From Geosporobacter ferrireducens (GTDB lineage: Bacteria; Bacillota; Clostridia; Peptostreptococcales; Thermotaleaceae): a stretch of DNA of 64,000 nucleotides. The notes under the pieces were generated by a model. It saw only the letters and a program-made list of their open reading frames with translations, did no database searches and was not told the origin of the DNA. Shown here one piece after another: positions 16,476 through 22,510 of the stretch; the stretch's first letter is position 1, and each line of letters starts with the position of its first letter. The DNA lies in the NCBI RefSeq assembly GCF_001750685.1, contig NZ_CP017269.1, positions 5,125,416 to 5,189,415 on the forward strand, given 5' to 3'. The position numbers and the translations under genes are program-made.

Positions 16476-16562
16476 ATTTCCCGATAAATTAATGGAGAAA
16501 AGGACAAAGAAGGTGAATAAAATAGATTAAAGCATGAAAGTCTACGCAGAGGGGGAGTTAAT

Positions 16563-17918
16563 TTGGCGAAATACAGGGAACTACCTTATACAAAATTAAA
16601 AAAGGTGTGTAATCCCAAGCAGTTTTCTTTTAAAACCACAGAAGAACTAATCCCATTGGAAGGAATCATTGGTCAAAACAGAGCGGTACAGGCAATGGCA
16701 TTTGGTTTGCAGGTTAAAAACTTGAGATATAACATTTTCGTTGTAGGCATAAAGGGAACCGGGAAAAAAAGCTATGTACAAAAGGTCGTAGAGCAAAAGG
16801 CACACCAGGAAAATACACCGGATGATTGGTGCTATGTATATAATTTTCAAGAACCGAGCCATCCAATTGCTTTAAGTATGCCGTCCGGAATGGGGAAAAT
16901 ACTCTGTGAAGACATGAATTTACTTGTACAGGATTTATTGACAGAGATTCCTAAAGCATTTTCTGGAGATGATTATGAGCGGCAGAAAACAGAAATCGTT
17001 AAAAAATATCAAGAGGAAAGAAATCAGTTATTAGAACAATTAACGGAGTATAGTAGAGAAAATGATTTTATGATTAAAAATACAAGTACTGGATTTATGC
17101 TAGCACCTATGTTGGATGGGGAAGTAGTAGGCGATAAGGAATTTGAAGACTTAGCAGAAGAACAGAAAGAGATGATTGAAAAGAAGGCTGAATATGTGCA
17201 ATTAAAAGCAGTCGAAATTTTAAGGAAAATGAAGGCTTTAGAAAGAGATGCCAAAAGGCAAATTCGGGAATTGGAAAGCAGAATAGGACTTTTTGTAGTA
17301 GAGCCCTTGTTAGATGAATTATATGATAAATATAAGGCACATAGCAGGATTCTCGAGTATTTAAAAAATGTGCAAAACGATGTGATAGAGAACATTGATG
17401 ATTTTGATTTATCCGAGGATGAGCAAACAGAGGTACTAACAAGAAAATCTGAAAATAGTTTCGTAAAAAAGTACAAGGTAAACATTTTTGTTGACAACAG
17501 CAATGCAGAAGGTGCTCCTGTTATTATAGAAAGTAATCCAAACTACAATAATTTAGTTGGAAGGATAGAGTACGAGAACGAGCAGGGTACTTTGAAGACG
17601 GATTTCTTAATGGTAAAGCCTGGCGCAATCCATAGGGCTAACGGTGGTTATCTGATTCTCCAGGCAAATCAAATATTATCAAATTTCCAATCCTGGGATA
17701 CTTTAAAAAGAACTTTGGAAACAGGAGAGATTAGCGTAGAAAGCATCAGGAGTCAATTAGGTATTGTAGATATTGCATCTCTAAAGCCAGAGCCGATACC
17801 TGTGAATATAAAGGTGATCATGATTGGTAACCCATATTTGTATCGACTGCTACATTCAGTGTATAGGTCAATTTTTATAAATGTAAAAAAACCTCCTACG
17901 CAGTATGGGAGGTTTTAA
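16563..17918 (+). CDS. Lon-like ATP-dependent protease, N-terminal half (gene split by an integrated element)
   Basis: This is the first part of a large Lon-related protease of the AAA_32 type. It shows EGIIGQNRAVQAMAFGLQV, Walker A-like VVGIKGTGKKSYV (about residues 60-72), a long helical insert (about 140-290), NGGYLILQA (Walker B region) and sensor-like VIMIGNPYLYRLL. The family normally runs to about 790 residues, but here Arg428 is the last native residue. From 17845 the frame enters an integrated element and ends after 23 foreign codons. The ATPase part is nearly complete; the protease domain is at 21410-22510. Precise excision would rejoin both halves in frame as 791 residues. As it stands the product would be a truncated ATPase without protease activity. 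Confidence 0.93.
   Translation: MAKYRELPYTKLKKVCNPKQFSFKTTEELIPLEGIIGQNRAVQAMAFGLQVKNLRYNIFVVGIKGTGKKSYVQKVVEQKAHQENTPDDWCYVYNFQEPSHPIALSMPSGMGKILCEDMNLLVQDLLTEIPKAFSGDDYERQKTEIVKKYQEERNQLLEQLTEYSRENDFMIKNTSTGFMLAPMLDGEVVGDKEFEDLAEEQKEMIEKKAEYVQLKAVEILRKMKALERDAKRQIRELESRIGLFVVEPLLDELYDKYKAHSRILEYLKNVQNDVIENIDDFDLSEDEQTEVLTRKSENSFVKKYKVNIFVDNSNAEGAPVIIESNPNYNNLVGRIEYENEQGTLKTDFLMVKPGAIHRANGGYLILQANQILSNFQSWDTLKRTLETGEISVESIRSQLGIVDIASLKPEPIPVNIKVIMIGNPYLYRLLHSVYRSIFINVKKPPTQYGRF
17845..17860. repeat. attL: core GACTGCT plus element arm ACATTCAGT
   Basis: Host sequence ends at TTGTATC; the shared core is 17845-17851. The following ACATTCAGT (17852-17860) is the inverted copy of ACTGAATGT near attR. 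Confidence 0.85.
17885..17916 (-). terminator. Terminator of the AGCS symporter gene
   Basis: AAAACCTCC (17888-17896) pairs with GGAGGTTTT (17908-17916). On the minus strand the stem is followed by seven T. It lies 34 bases inside attL, and the stop codon of the truncated protease frame (17916-17918) abuts it. Confidence 0.85.
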
Positions 17919-17927
17919 GTGATTATC

Positions 17928-19379
17928 TTATCTTTTGCCAGCCTGCTTATTTCTAGCTGTCCAGAAATCAGCATTTTTAATTCCAAGTTTAGCTGGATCG
18001 AATACTGGATCTTTTCCTTGTGCTCTTTGCTCTTCATAGTCTTTAAGTGCATCAAATGCAGGCTTTCTAAGGATAACGATAGCAATGATGTTTAACCAAG
18101 CCATTAATCCTACCCCGATGTCACCTAGGCCCCATGCTAATTCAGCAGTTCTAATAGCGCCGTAGTAGATAGATACAAGTAATAAGATTCTTAATATGTT
18201 GATTGCGATCTTTCTGTTGTTACCTTTTTTAAATAGGTAGGCAATATTTGTTTCTGCATAGTAATAATATGCCATCAATGTTGTAAATGCAAAGAAGAAC
18301 AATGCAATCGCAACAAATGGAGCACCAAATCTTGGCATTAATGTTTCAACAGCTTTTTGTGTGAATGCAGGTCCAACATTTACGCCAGGAAGTTTTTCTA
18401 CTAAGAAACCGCCTGCAGGATTATTGATATTATAGGAGCCTGTAATTAAGATCATGAAAGCTGTAGCGGAGCATACAAATAGTGTATCTACATATACAGA
18501 GAAGGCTTGAACAAGACCTTGCTTTGTTGGGTGAGATACTTCTGCTGCAGCTGCAGCCATTGGACCAGTACCTTGACCAGCTTCGTTAGAGTAGATACCA
18601 CGCTTAACGCCCCAGGATACTGCCATACCGATGATACCGGCGAAAGCTGGCTCGATGGCAAATGCGCTCTTAAATATTAAGCCGATTACTGCAGGAAGCT
18701 GTCCAATATTTAATAAGATGATTATCAAAGATACTAAGATATAACCAGTAGCCATGAATGGCACGATTAACTCAGCAGCTCTACCGATACGCTTAACACC
18801 ACCGAAGATGATTAAAGCGAGTAAAGCTACGATAATACCGCCTGTAACAACAGGACTTATACCAAATGCGTTTTGAACACCAGCAGCGATACTGTTGGAT
18901 TGTACACCCGGTAAGAAGAAACCCATTGCGATTACTGTAGAAACAGCGAATATCAAAGCATACCACTTCATACCCATACCTTTTTCGATATAGTATTGAG
19001 GACCTCCGCGATACTCACCATCAACTTCTTCTTTGTAAATCTGTGCCAATACAGATTCAACGAAGGCTGAACCTGCACCTAGGAAAGCGATTGCCCACAT
19101 CCAGAATACTGCTCCAGGACCACCCATTGCGATAGCCGTAGCAACACCGGCAATATTACCTGTACCTACACGACCGGAAACAGCAAGAGAGAAAGCTTGG
19201 AATGAAGATACACCTTGCTCTGAACTCTGGCCTCCAAACAGGAGTTTTACCATGTCCTTGATGTGACGGACTTGCAGGAATCGGGTTGCCACTGAGAAGT
19301 ATAAACCCACTCCTAAACATAGATAAATAAGTGCTTGACTCCACAAAATACCGTTTAGTGAGTCTACCAATTGAGCCAT
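17928..19379 (-). CDS. AGCS-family sodium/alanine (or glycine) symporter carried by the element
   Basis: The 483-residue protein has about ten membrane segments and the AGCS signature SGRVGTGNIAGVATAIAMGG, followed by GAVFWMW, GGPQYYIEKG and later SNEAGQGTGPMAAAAAE. It imports alanine, glycine or a similar amino acid with sodium. I start it at ATG 19379, preceded by GGAGGTGGAG; an in-frame upstream ATG would add 39 residues lacking family support. It runs opposite to the recombinase and has its own promoter-like sequence and terminator. Length is normal and no key segment is missing, so it appears functional. It is the only evident cargo gene of the element. Confidence 0.95.
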   Translation of the reverse strand: MAQLVDSLNGILWSQALIYLCLGVGLYFSVATRFLQVRHIKDMVKLLFGGQSSEQGVSSFQAFSLAVSGRVGTGNIAGVATAIAMGGPGAVFWMWAIAFLGAGSAFVESVLAQIYKEEVDGEYRGGPQYYIEKGMGMKWYALIFAVSTVIAMGFFLPGVQSNSIAAGVQNAFGISPVVTGGIIVALLALIIFGGVKRIGRAAELIVPFMATGYILVSLIIILLNIGQLPAVIGLIFKSAFAIEPAFAGIIGMAVSWGVKRGIYSNEAGQGTGPMAAAAAEVSHPTKQGLVQAFSVYVDTLFVCSATAFMILITGSYNINNPAGGFLVEKLPGVNVGPAFTQKAVETLMPRFGAPFVAIALFFFAFTTLMAYYYYAETNIAYLFKKGNNRKIAINILRILLLVSIYYGAIRTAELAWGLGDIGVGLMAWLNIIAIVILRKPAFDALKDYEEQRAQGKDPVFDPAKLGIKNADFWTARNKQAGKR

Positions 19380-19691
19380 TAACTCCACCTCCATAGTTGT
19401 TAAAATTTTTATAAAATTACTAAAAAATATTAAGTTAATAATACTACTTTTTTTGAAAAGAATCAATAAGCTTTTTTCATTTTTGTAACATTTCATGATG
19501 GAAAAATGTTCTGCTGAACAGATGAATCATGAATAAATTGCTAATCATAAGCGTATTTTGAGGAACTGATACGTTTTATATTATTGACATAATCAAAGAA
19601 AAATTATTCAAAAAAACAATAATTTAGATGAATCAGAATACTACTGAGCTACTAGACTACATAAATTTAAATTAGGAAGGAGGAATCTGTT
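19380..19691. other. Divergent promoter region inside the element
   Basis: These 312 AT-rich bases separate the leftward symporter gene from the rightward small-ORF/recombinase pair and must hold both promoters. Apart from the symporter promoter candidate at 19438-19466 I see no convincing pair of boxes, no glycine riboswitch and no strong hairpin. Confidence 0.6.
19438..19466 (-). promoter_or_regulatory. Promoter-like sequence for the AGCS symporter
   Basis: On the minus strand TTGATT (19466-19461), a 17-base spacer and TATTAT (19443-19438) form a sigma-A-like promoter, about 59 bases before the ATG. Confidence 0.5.
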
Positions 19692-19820
19692 ATGGAGAAT
19701 ATCAAAAAAACGAAAATCTTGCGCCAGTATGGAGATGAAGAGCTGGAAGCGATTCTTACAGCTATAGTAATGGAGGAACTTGCCAAAGGCGAAAATCAAT
19801 CGACGGAGGATTATGAATAA
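19692..19820 (+). CDS. 42-codon protein upstream of the recombinase (candidate recombination accessory factor)
   Basis: ATG at 19692 is preceded by a near-perfect AGGAAGGAGG ribosome site at the right distance, and the frame runs 42 codons to TAA at 19818-19820. The product begins MENIKKTKILRQYGDEELEA and contains a probable amphipathic helix ILTAIVMEELAKGE, ending acidic. It lies 2 bases before the recombinase ATG, so the two are translated together. I do not recognise the family. Its size and position suit a directionality factor or a regulator of the recombinase, but this is inference. The strong ribosome site and the tight coupling argue that it is a real gene. Confidence 0.72.
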   Translation: MENIKKTKILRQYGDEELEAILTAIVMEELAKGENQSTEDYE

Positions 19821-19822
19821 AA

Positions 19823-21376
19823 ATGAAAATTTGGTATGTGGGTATTTATGCAAGGGTTTCTACTACGAAAGACGAGCAAAAAGACTCCATACAAACACAA
19901 ATTCAGAGTTTGCAAGAATGGATTCGTAAGAGCAATCAAGGGAACTTAGAGAGATATGAGGTTGTGAAAACTTTTCAAGATCACGGAATATCCGGTGCTA
20001 CCTTTGAGAGAGATGATTTCGATGAAATGAAAAAATATATTGAGCAAGGTAAAATAAATATGGTGTTGACCAGAGATTTATCTCGTTTAGGGAGAAATTA
20101 TATATTGGCTGGCTACTATCTGGAAGACTATTTTAAAATAAACAATATAAGATTTGTTTCAGTATTAGATCATGTAGATACAGTTGATGAGATCAATGAT
20201 ATTGTTCCGTTCAAAAATGTTTTGAATGAAATGTATATCAAAGATTGTTCAAGAAGGAGTCGGGATGGACTAAAGCAGAGAATGATCCGCGGAAGCTATA
20301 TTGGTTCTAAGCCGCCTTACGGATATATGAAAATGATCATAGAAGAAAATGGGCAAAAAACCATTAAACTAGTACCTGCCGAGGATGAAACCACAGTAGT
20401 GGTGAAGGAAATATTTCAGTTGTATTTAAAAGGATGGGGGTATACGAGAATTGCAAATCAGCTAAATGACAGAGAAATACCTTCCCCAGCTTCACGCATT
20501 GGTTTTCCGTTGTCAAAATGGTATCGTTGGAATGAAAATGGTGTGAAATCAATCCTAACCAATCCAAAATATGGTGGAATCATGGTCCAGGGACAGTATA
20601 AGAAAATCAGTTATAAGCTTAAAAAAACAGTAAAGCTGCCTCAGGAGAACTGGATTTATAGTGGAGAATTTCAAGGTATTGTATCTAAAGATGTATTTTT
20701 AAAGGTTCAAGAGGAAATGGAGAACAGAAGGAGCTCAGGTATAAAAAAACAAGAAAAAGCCTATTTATTTAGCCATAAAATTATATGTGGAGATTGTGGC
20801 GGTGCAATGGGGTATCAAAAAAAGTACCAGGGATATCGGTGCATAAATGGCCAACGAGGTGGAAACCGTTGTACATCCCATAGCATTAAAGAGGATTTTT
20901 TGCTGTTGAAAATTAAAGAAGATATTCAATCTTATAGCGAGAAACTGAAAATTGAAAAGACTGTGCACCGGATGGATTTTTCGGTAAATAAGAAAAAAGA
21001 AGGCATACAGGTGCGTTTGACGGAGACAGAAGATCAATTAAAAAGAATTGAAGGGAAGCTTAAAAAATTATATGAGGATCGATTGGAAGAACATATATCA
21101 AAAGAGTTGTTCCTAAATTTTTCAAAAGAAATTGAAGAAAAACGGAAAATGTTATTAAAGAAAAAAGACCTCTTGCAAGAGCAGCTGACAAGTGTAAATC
21201 ATGATATGGATCAATGGAGGGAAGGGCTTCGGGAAAGAATCAAGGAACTATTTACTTTTAAAAAACCTACGAATGGATTTATTGATAAACTGATAAAAGA
21301 AATTATTGTTTTTGAAAGTAAGGATAAGCAAGGGAGGATCATTGAGATACACTATAAATTTCGAGATCCTGTTTAA
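19823..21376 (+). CDS. Large serine recombinase (site-specific integrase)
   Basis: The 517-residue protein has a resolvase-type catalytic domain (about 4-150) with IYARVSTTKDEQKDS, where Ser13 is the nucleophile, and TRDLSRLGRNYI. The pfam 'Recombinase' DNA-binding domain follows (about 165-290, PPYGYMKM and GWGYTRIANQLNDREIPSP). Next comes a zinc ribbon with Cys322, Cys325, Cys340 and Cys350, then a coiled-coil segment (about 380-460). The architecture is that of TnpX/TndX, phage integrases and SpoIVCA. It stands at the right end of the element 41 bases from the attR core, and its orientation relative to attP is typical. It is the evident agent of integration and excision of this element. 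No GGAGG is at ideal distance (19805-19809 is 13 bases away), so translation may depend on the small gene before it. Confidence 0.95.
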   Translation: MKIWYVGIYARVSTTKDEQKDSIQTQIQSLQEWIRKSNQGNLERYEVVKTFQDHGISGATFERDDFDEMKKYIEQGKINMVLTRDLSRLGRNYILAGYYLEDYFKINNIRFVSVLDHVDTVDEINDIVPFKNVLNEMYIKDCSRRSRDGLKQRMIRGSYIGSKPPYGYMKMIIEENGQKTIKLVPAEDETTVVVKEIFQLYLKGWGYTRIANQLNDREIPSPASRIGFPLSKWYRWNENGVKSILTNPKYGGIMVQGQYKKISYKLKKTVKLPQENWIYSGEFQGIVSKDVFLKVQEEMENRRSSGIKKQEKAYLFSHKIICGDCGGAMGYQKKYQGYRCINGQRGGNRCTSHSIKEDFLLLKIKEDIQSYSEKLKIEKTVHRMDFSVNKKKEGIQVRLTETEDQLKRIEGKLKKLYEDRLEEHISKELFLNFSKEIEEKRKMLLKKKDLLQEQLTSVNHDMDQWREGLRERIKELFTFKKPTNGFIDKLIKEIIVFESKDKQGRIIEIHYKFRDPV

Positions 21377-21404
21377 AAAATGGAATGCAATCAAAAATCT
21401 AAAT

Positions 21405-21423
21405 ACTGAATGTGGAGACTGCT
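21405..21423. repeat. attR: element arm ACTGAATGT plus core GACTGCT
   Basis: ACTGAATGT (21405-21413), GGA, then the core (21417-21423), after which host coding sequence resumes as TTATGCAGTGGACG. Confidence 0.85.
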
Positions 21424-22510
21424 TTATGCAGTGGACGATGAATTTGAAAAGCTTTTTAAAGTGAAGGTAGACTTTGATGATAAGATGGATACTGGAAAGG
21501 AAAATGAGCTTAAAATTGCTCAATTCATTAGCTATTACTGCAAAAGAAAAAACATTAAGCATTTGGATGCAACCGGTGTTGCTAAGGTTATAGAATATTG
21601 CAGCAGAATCGCAGAAAATCAAAATAAGTTATCAACACGCTTTAGTAAAATTGCAGAATTGCTAATAGAAGCGGATGCTTGGGCAGAAGTAGATAAGGAA
21701 CCGTATATCCGTGATAAACATATCAAAAAAGCCTATGATGAAAAGATTTATCGAAACAATATGATAGAAGAGAAAATGCTGGAGATGTACAAAACAAGAA
21801 AAGTCATTATCGATATTAAGGAAAGAAAAATAGGCCGAATTAATGGATTATCTGTTATGAATCTGGGTGATCATGTGTTTGGGAAACCATCAGTCATTAC
21901 AGCTACGACTTTTATTGGCCACAAAGGAGTTATTAATATTGAGCGGGAAGTCGAAATGAGTGGTAGTATCCATGATAAAGGGGTAATGATTCTGGAGGGC
22001 TATTTAAGCGAAAAGTTTGCTCAAGATGTGCCACTCTCCCTTACAGGGAAGATATGCTTTGAACAATCTTATGGCGGGATCGATGGAGATAGTGCTTCCA
22101 GTACAGAACTATATGCACTGTTATCGAGTCTGGGAGATGTACCGCTCAAACAATACATTGCGGTAACCGGTTCGGTGAACCAAAAAGGCGAGATTCAACC
22201 AGTTGGGGGGGTAACGGAAAAAATAGAAGGATTTTTCGATATTTGCAACCACTTTGGTCTTACAGGTGATCAGGGAGTCATGATTCCTTATCAAAATATT
22301 GAGGATCTGGTTTTAAAGGACGAGGTGATTCGTGCAGTACAAAAAGGAATTTTCCATATCTATCCTGTATCCAGCATTGAAGAAGGAATAGAGATACTAA
22401 CGGATAAATCGTATCTTGATATATATGAGCGTATTAAAGGGAAATTGCATAAATATGCTGACTCAGACAATCAATCCACTGCTTCAGGAAAAAACTTAAA
22501 GAGGAAATAA
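21410..22510 (+). CDS. Lon-like ATP-dependent protease, C-terminal half (gene split by an integrated element)
   Basis: From Arg3 onward the frame continues the protease gene broken at 17845: LLYAVDDEFEKLFKVKVDFDD, the AAA+ lid, then the Lon proteolytic domain. Catalytic Ser is in DGDSASS (codon 22091) and catalytic Lys in GGVTEKIEG (codon 22220). They are 43 residues apart, the spacing seen in E. coli Lon. The nominal ATG at 21410 lies inside the element arm and has no ribosome site, so this half is probably not translated while the element is integrated. Joined to the first half it gives a 791-residue protein of normal family length. The reading frame is intact throughout, with no decay. A terminator follows. 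Confidence 0.92.
   Translation: MWRLLYAVDDEFEKLFKVKVDFDDKMDTGKENELKIAQFISYYCKRKNIKHLDATGVAKVIEYCSRIAENQNKLSTRFSKIAELLIEADAWAEVDKEPYIRDKHIKKAYDEKIYRNNMIEEKMLEMYKTRKVIIDIKERKIGRINGLSVMNLGDHVFGKPSVITATTFIGHKGVINIEREVEMSGSIHDKGVMILEGYLSEKFAQDVPLSLTGKICFEQSYGGIDGDSASSTELYALLSSLGDVPLKQYIAVTGSVNQKGEIQPVGGVTEKIEGFFDICNHFGLTGDQGVMIPYQNIEDLVLKDEVIRAVQKGIFHIYPVSSIEEGIEILTDKSYLDIYERIKGKLHKYADSDNQSTASGKNLKRK

Follow-up and report, generated by a model that had tools for sequence, protein, structure and literature searches.

A large serine recombinase element within a LonC-type protease gene of Geosporobacter: a likely case of regulated, frame-restoring excision

A Lon-like protease gene is divided in two by a serine-recombinase element in the window analyzed here, a stretch of 64,000 nucleotides of DNA from Geosporobacter ferrireducens. 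The arrangement raises the question of whether the gene is interrupted for good, or is kept in a state from which it may be rebuilt. The first-pass annotation of the sequence described the split as exactly reversible and offered two alternative explanations, that the insertion is recent or that regulated excision is under selection. The features on which the following discussion is based are reported in Table 1.

Table 1. Position of the split protease gene, of the element and of the attachment-site cores within the window
Feature	Position	Strand	Basis
Block upstream of the split protease gene, with its ribosome-binding site	16480-16562	+	14 aligned upstream regions
LonC-type protease gene, 5' half: host sequence coding for the AAA domain as far as the sensor-1 region	16563-17844	+	ORF, Pfam
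Core GACTGCT of attL	17845-17851	+	sequence comparison
Hairpin AACCTCC...GGAGGTT, between the protease 5' half and AGCS	17890-17914	.	read from sequence
AGCS family Na+/alanine symporter, relocated host orthologue	17928-19379	-	PF01235 (Na_Ala_symp); TIGR00835 agcS over cut-off
42-aa acidic ORF directly upstream of the recombinase	19692-19820	+	small ORF similarly placed in almost all related loci
Large serine recombinase, 517 aa	19823-21376	+	PF00239, PF07508, PF13408
Core GACTGCT of attR	21417-21423	+	sequence comparison
LonC-type protease gene, 3' half: host sequence coding for the AAA lid and the Ser/Lys protease domain	21417-22510	+	ORF, Pfam

The element measures 3,572 bp between equal points of the two cores. 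When the flanks are rejoined at the core, a single open frame of 791 codons plus stop is obtained, where the joint reads ...NPYLYRLLYAVDDEF..., within the peptide stretch YRLLYAVDDEFEK; cores, element and rejoined frame are therefore as originally described. The shared 7-mer, by itself, is at chance level: the two 300-bp flanks share several other 7-mers and one 8-mer. The core is set beyond chance by the exact restoration of the frame, by the presence of the same joint in Geosporobacter subterraneus, by the alignment with 28 uninterrupted homologues and by an attP-like palindrome. The latter is imperfect (ACTGAATGT..ACATTCAGT) and spans the predicted circular joint, which reads ACTGAATGTGGAGACTGCTACATTCAGT. 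The joint predicted for the excised, rejoined protease gene (attB) is TTGTATCGACTGCTTTATGCAG, and that predicted for the closed circle (attP) is GAATGTGGAGACTGCTACATTCAG. Neither an excised junction nor a closed attP joint or circle was found in the two Geosporobacter assemblies, although none would be expected to show up if most of the assembled DNA was unexcised.

From left to right, the element is composed of the hairpin, the minus-strand AGCS gene, a divergent intergenic region, the 42-aa ORF and the recombinase, which ends 40 bp before the attR core. The hairpin is a probable terminator, acting in both directions, and a comparable one is located at the same position in G. subterraneus. 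It is not among the matches of the terminator scan; in the region, sigma-70 promoters and terminators were found by scanning no more frequently than in shuffled sequence. The recombinase features Resolvase, Recombinase and zinc ribbon domains. In G. ferrireducens, a strong ribosome-binding site (AGGAGG) precedes the 42-aa ORF, and another (GGAGG) the recombinase. No useful family match was obtained for the 42-aa ORF in Pfam, PHROGs or NCBIfam; its acidic product is a candidate recombination directionality factor, a role played in other intervening elements by small acidic proteins such as CD1234, of 53 aa (PMC10747680, PMC5025042). Phage structural or replication genes are absent from the 3.57-kb element, which contains only AGCS, the small ORF and the recombinase: a prophage is ruled out by this gene content, and identity of the recombinase to the listed phage records does not exceed about 32%. 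In the same genome, five serine-recombinase matches are located within about 26 kb (G000:C1:679516-705789), possibly as stacked integrations.

The domains of the LonC-type class are found in the rejoined protein: the LonC helical, AAA-like, LonB-type lid and S16 Ser/Lys protease domains. Pfam assigns LonC_helical and AAA_32 to the 5' half, LonB_AAA-LID and Lon_C to the 3' half, and the split point falls within the AAA domain. Among proteins of solved structure, the LonC-type peptidase MtaLonC comes closest (PDB 4fwd, E 5e-79), while an assignment to the archaeal-type LonB (TIGR00764) was rejected, the score being 174 bits versus a NCBIfam cut-off of 516.6. The catalytic residues, Ser653 and Lys696, lie 43 residues apart and are invariant among relatives in the alignment with the 28 uninterrupted homologues, in agreement with the earlier statement that both halves are intact. 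The first residue is coded by a TTG start, and the Walker A motif is GTGK. In almost every member of the family the acidic residue of Walker B is lost or substituted, so that ATP dependence is not to be assumed; its absence is a trait of LonC-type proteases.

A search for related recombinases, covering one genome per species in about 85,000 species, led to the identification of one close relative, 68% identical, in G. subterraneus DSM 17957. There the element interrupts the same codon at the same core, with the same gene order, and the noncoding stretches also align; other genomes with the same insertion point had been called for as a check. Identity between the two species is 89% for the protease 5' half, 86% for the 3' half, 96% for AGCS and 68% for the recombinase, and synonymous sites are saturated in most genes. 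The pN/pS ratios of the split gene are 0.069 (5' half) and 0.108 (3' half), to be compared with 0.060 and 0.088 for the corresponding parts of the whole gene in a sister pair (G003/G010). The recombinase itself is under purifying selection (omega about 0.10).

A recent insertion is ruled out by these data: the insertion is common to G. subterraneus at saturated synonymous divergence, and both halves are under undiminished constraint. Since the split is shared and constraint is not relaxed, interruption of the gene dates back to the common ancestor, short of two separate entries of the element into one site. Such a long interruption without relaxed constraint is the main argument for routine reassembly of the protease, and the comparative data support the other proposal of the first-pass annotation, selection for regulated excision.

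In relatives, the gene is generally whole: 12 of the 14 other genomes analyzed for the family carry one uninterrupted copy, coding for 787-814 aa, and all 12 are well covered. The remaining two are incomplete genomes: G004 (76% complete) has a truncated copy, matching query residues 128-779 only, and no copy was found in G002 (68% complete). Independent conserved halves or broken frames, either of which would have spoken against a reversible split, were not encountered. In the tree, both split genes group with the family orthologues. An upstream block of 40 bp is conserved from split to whole genes, with GGAGAnAnGGACnA...TGAATAnAATnGATTAAAG maintained among the family orthologues, split ones included. 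A genome search with the core motif of the block found this one site only, and the block matched no sporulation sigma factor.

A link with sporulation is suggested by the distribution of the gene. The orthologue clade is confined to spoIVA-positive genomes, with the exception of the incomplete G004, an association which is phylogenetic and is based on few independent contrasts. The spoIVA-negative genomes of the order have the second protease paralogue only, or none; some spore formers also are without the gene. In both Geosporobacter genomes, moreover, sigK is divided, its parts being separated by about 7 kb, and a SpoIVCA-like recombinase adjoins the 5' part. Splitting of sigK is the classical mother-cell rearrangement, and its presence in both genomes makes a second rearrangement of this kind plausible there. 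The skin-type sigK element itself (L092, G000:C1:5732000-5742000; L093) is about 7 kb long and conserved in the two species; among its host-like genes is a RodA/FtsW-like one. In G. ferrireducens, a second copy of the sigK 3' part, a 68-aa ORF, is found about 22 kb downstream of the split gene (L094, G000:C1:5762366-5762635); none is listed for G. subterraneus.

The symporter gene had been indicated as an AGCS cargo. The family assignment is correct, while a foreign origin is not supported: the gene is orthologous to the AGCS that the host family itself possesses, and in each Geosporobacter genome it alone represents its orthologous group. In three relatives where the protease gene is whole (G006, G003, G010), an 80-84% identical AGCS is located elsewhere, beside ktrB-ktrA; at the ktrBA locus of both Geosporobacter genomes no AGCS is present. 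Another marker of the former place, hlyIII, was tried, but has no orthologue in Geosporobacter, and ktrB was used instead. The upstream region, with ribosome-binding site TATGGAGGTGG, is similar in all five genomes. From this distribution, AGCS appears to have moved from the ktrBA neighbourhood onto the element. It is not the only AGCS gene available, because both Geosporobacter genomes contain a second, divergent one. Between the two species the pS of the element copy is 0.38, versus about 0.7 in most of its neighbours, which may be due to strong codon bias or to later exchange.

We therefore regard the locus, with good but not full confidence, as a gene-intervening element of the skin/gin kind, whose regulated, precise excision would rebuild the protease, most likely in the sporulating mother cell. 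In the ancestor of Geosporobacter, a large serine recombinase would have integrated a small cassette at the 7-bp core in the LonC-type protease gene. In the germ line the cassette would stay in place, the protease being off and the relocated AGCS gene being carried along. Recombination between attL and attR would then be triggered developmentally, most likely in the sporulating mother cell, and be carried out by the recombinase and probably by the 42-aa protein; the halves would be joined in frame to code for the 791-aa protease, and the released circle would be lost together with the mother cell. Against excision in sporulation it may be argued that only two species carry the element, and that a second protease paralogue in the G. 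ferrireducens genome, whole and 48% identical, leaves the need for the split copy unproven.

Regulated excision may also be placed outside sporulation, as a low-frequency or stress-induced event of growing cells, a phase variation producing a subpopulation with active protease. Serine recombinases are able to act in any cell, and the excised form of yin, an element of Clostridium botulinum, is present at all culture time points (PMC10747680); the similarity of the AGCS upstream region to that of relatives indicates, in addition, that AGCS is probably used in growing cells. This reading, however, does not account for an orthologue clade which tracks spoIVA, nor for the split sigK in the same genomes, and a dividing lineage would risk the loss of the relocated AGCS, even if the second, divergent gene exists. 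It is considered unlikely.

Highly improbable is the production of two polypeptides, translated separately and then assembled, for which excision would be unneeded. Both halves are open, conserved, and provided with start and stop codons. The 5' half is preceded by a clear ribosome-binding site, AGGGGGAG, in both species, and its ORF continues to 17918 through an element-coded tail, which differs between them. For the 3' half, in contrast, no ribosome-binding site is present in either species, and the first ATG (21410) falls within the attachment-site arm, directly after an in-frame TGA. For these reasons, and because the 5' tail is not conserved, independent translation of the 3' half is unlikely, and a split protein working in trans is disfavoured. 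The position of the split within the AAA domain, and the conservation of recombinase and attachment sites as well, further argue against it. Least credible of all are a protease dead in Geosporobacter, with halves not yet decayed, for which saturated divergence under undiminished constraint rules out long-term neutrality, and two independent insertions of related elements, which site-specific recombinases could perform and the stronger divergence of the recombinase relative to AGCS would fit, but which are contradicted by the aligned gene order and noncoding stretches and by the finding of no other related recombinase among 394 genomes of the order.

Excision in sporulation, the preferred reading, may be compared with known cases. 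Genes described as interrupted in the literature consulted are sigK, spsM, spoVFB, spoVR, gerE and yabG; searches of open-licence papers yielded no description of lonC or manC being split. Traits of sporulation intervening elements, such as skin, SPbeta/spsM, gin, vfbin and yin, are present here: one coding sequence is split at a short direct repeat, its frame is exactly restored by removal, and a large serine recombinase is encoded beside the attachment site. The gin element, located in gerE of Bacillus cereus ATCC10987, is similarly non-phage, encodes serine recombinases and splits its target in frame at a short core; it is 28.6 kb long, with 31 genes, three recombinases and a separate directionality factor, GirX, and its precise excision, which rebuilds gerE in sporulation, is proven (PMC5595907). 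The lonC element, in contrast, is known from sequence, is only 3.6 kb long and has one recombinase, one relocated host gene and another target. The skin elements in sigK of Bacillus and Clostridioides difficile share the in-frame split, the element-encoded large serine recombinase and the maintenance through speciation, and that of C. difficile has a small acidic directionality factor (PMC5025042), to which the 42-aa ORF may correspond. They differ in target gene, core and recombinase clade; Geosporobacter's own skin-type element, about 7 kb long, also carries other genes. In yin, located in yabG of C. botulinum, a sporulation protease gene is split by an element with the same three recombinase Pfam domains, of which a circular form was detected (PMC10747680). 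It is prophage-like, however, and YabG is a cysteine protease, while the lonC element interrupts a Ser/Lys LonC-type enzyme, has no phage genes and occurs in two species.

New, in comparison, are the LonC-type protease as target gene and the captured host gene on an intervening element. The short list of genes split by an element and restored by its removal thus gains a LonC-type protease, in a minimal cassette without phage genes. The locus also indicates how such elements may become fixed: once a host gene moves onto the element, the germ line pays a price for losing it, a price that is no burden to a cell in terminal differentiation. A more extended hypothesis, possible although on balance doubtful, sees a two-way developmental switch, where excision in the mother cell would turn the protease on and, at the same time, delete the relocated AGCS; the captured host gene would have made germ-line loss costly, thereby fixing the element as a regulatory part, and the same recombinase family would have done so repeatedly, with manC in Clostridium and lonC here.

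The manC elements are marked by the nearest other relatives of the recombinase, 45-50% identical, which come from Clostridium and allies (20 loci, L040-L059) and from one IMG/VR contig (L075). The 3' part of manC, coding for mannose-1-phosphate guanylyltransferase, lies downstream of the recombinase in all 21 loci, split at the same codon. The 5' part also falls within the examined DNA in 11 of them, and joining gives a frame of 355 aa in nine of the 11. Almost all related loci have a small ORF ahead of the recombinase gene. These elements resemble the lonC one in this small ORF, in the central AC of a GACYGC-like core, in a close attP arm and in the frame-restoring joint: the right arm of the attP-like joint, CTACATTCAGTGTATAGGTCA, is nearly identical to that of the manC element in L044, CTACATTCAATATATAGGTCA. 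In L049 the two sides have only AC in common, which fits AC as the central dinucleotide. They differ in the target, a guanylyltransferase instead of a protease gene, and in the cargo, which varies from locus to locus. The data suggest that the recombinase reached Geosporobacter horizontally, with a change of target; the recombinase tree is unrooted, the outgroup being too distant, and does not tell which of the two, manC or lonC elements, descends from the other. With manC cassettes in about 20 genomes of the Clostridium group, a whole recombinase family of gene-splitting habit, apparently undescribed, is suggested. In a single case, L057 from Clostridium akagii, the match to the recombinase stops at residue 396, and manC, once joined, has a frame of only 207 aa: both appear truncated, as if manC had decayed after loss of the recombinase.
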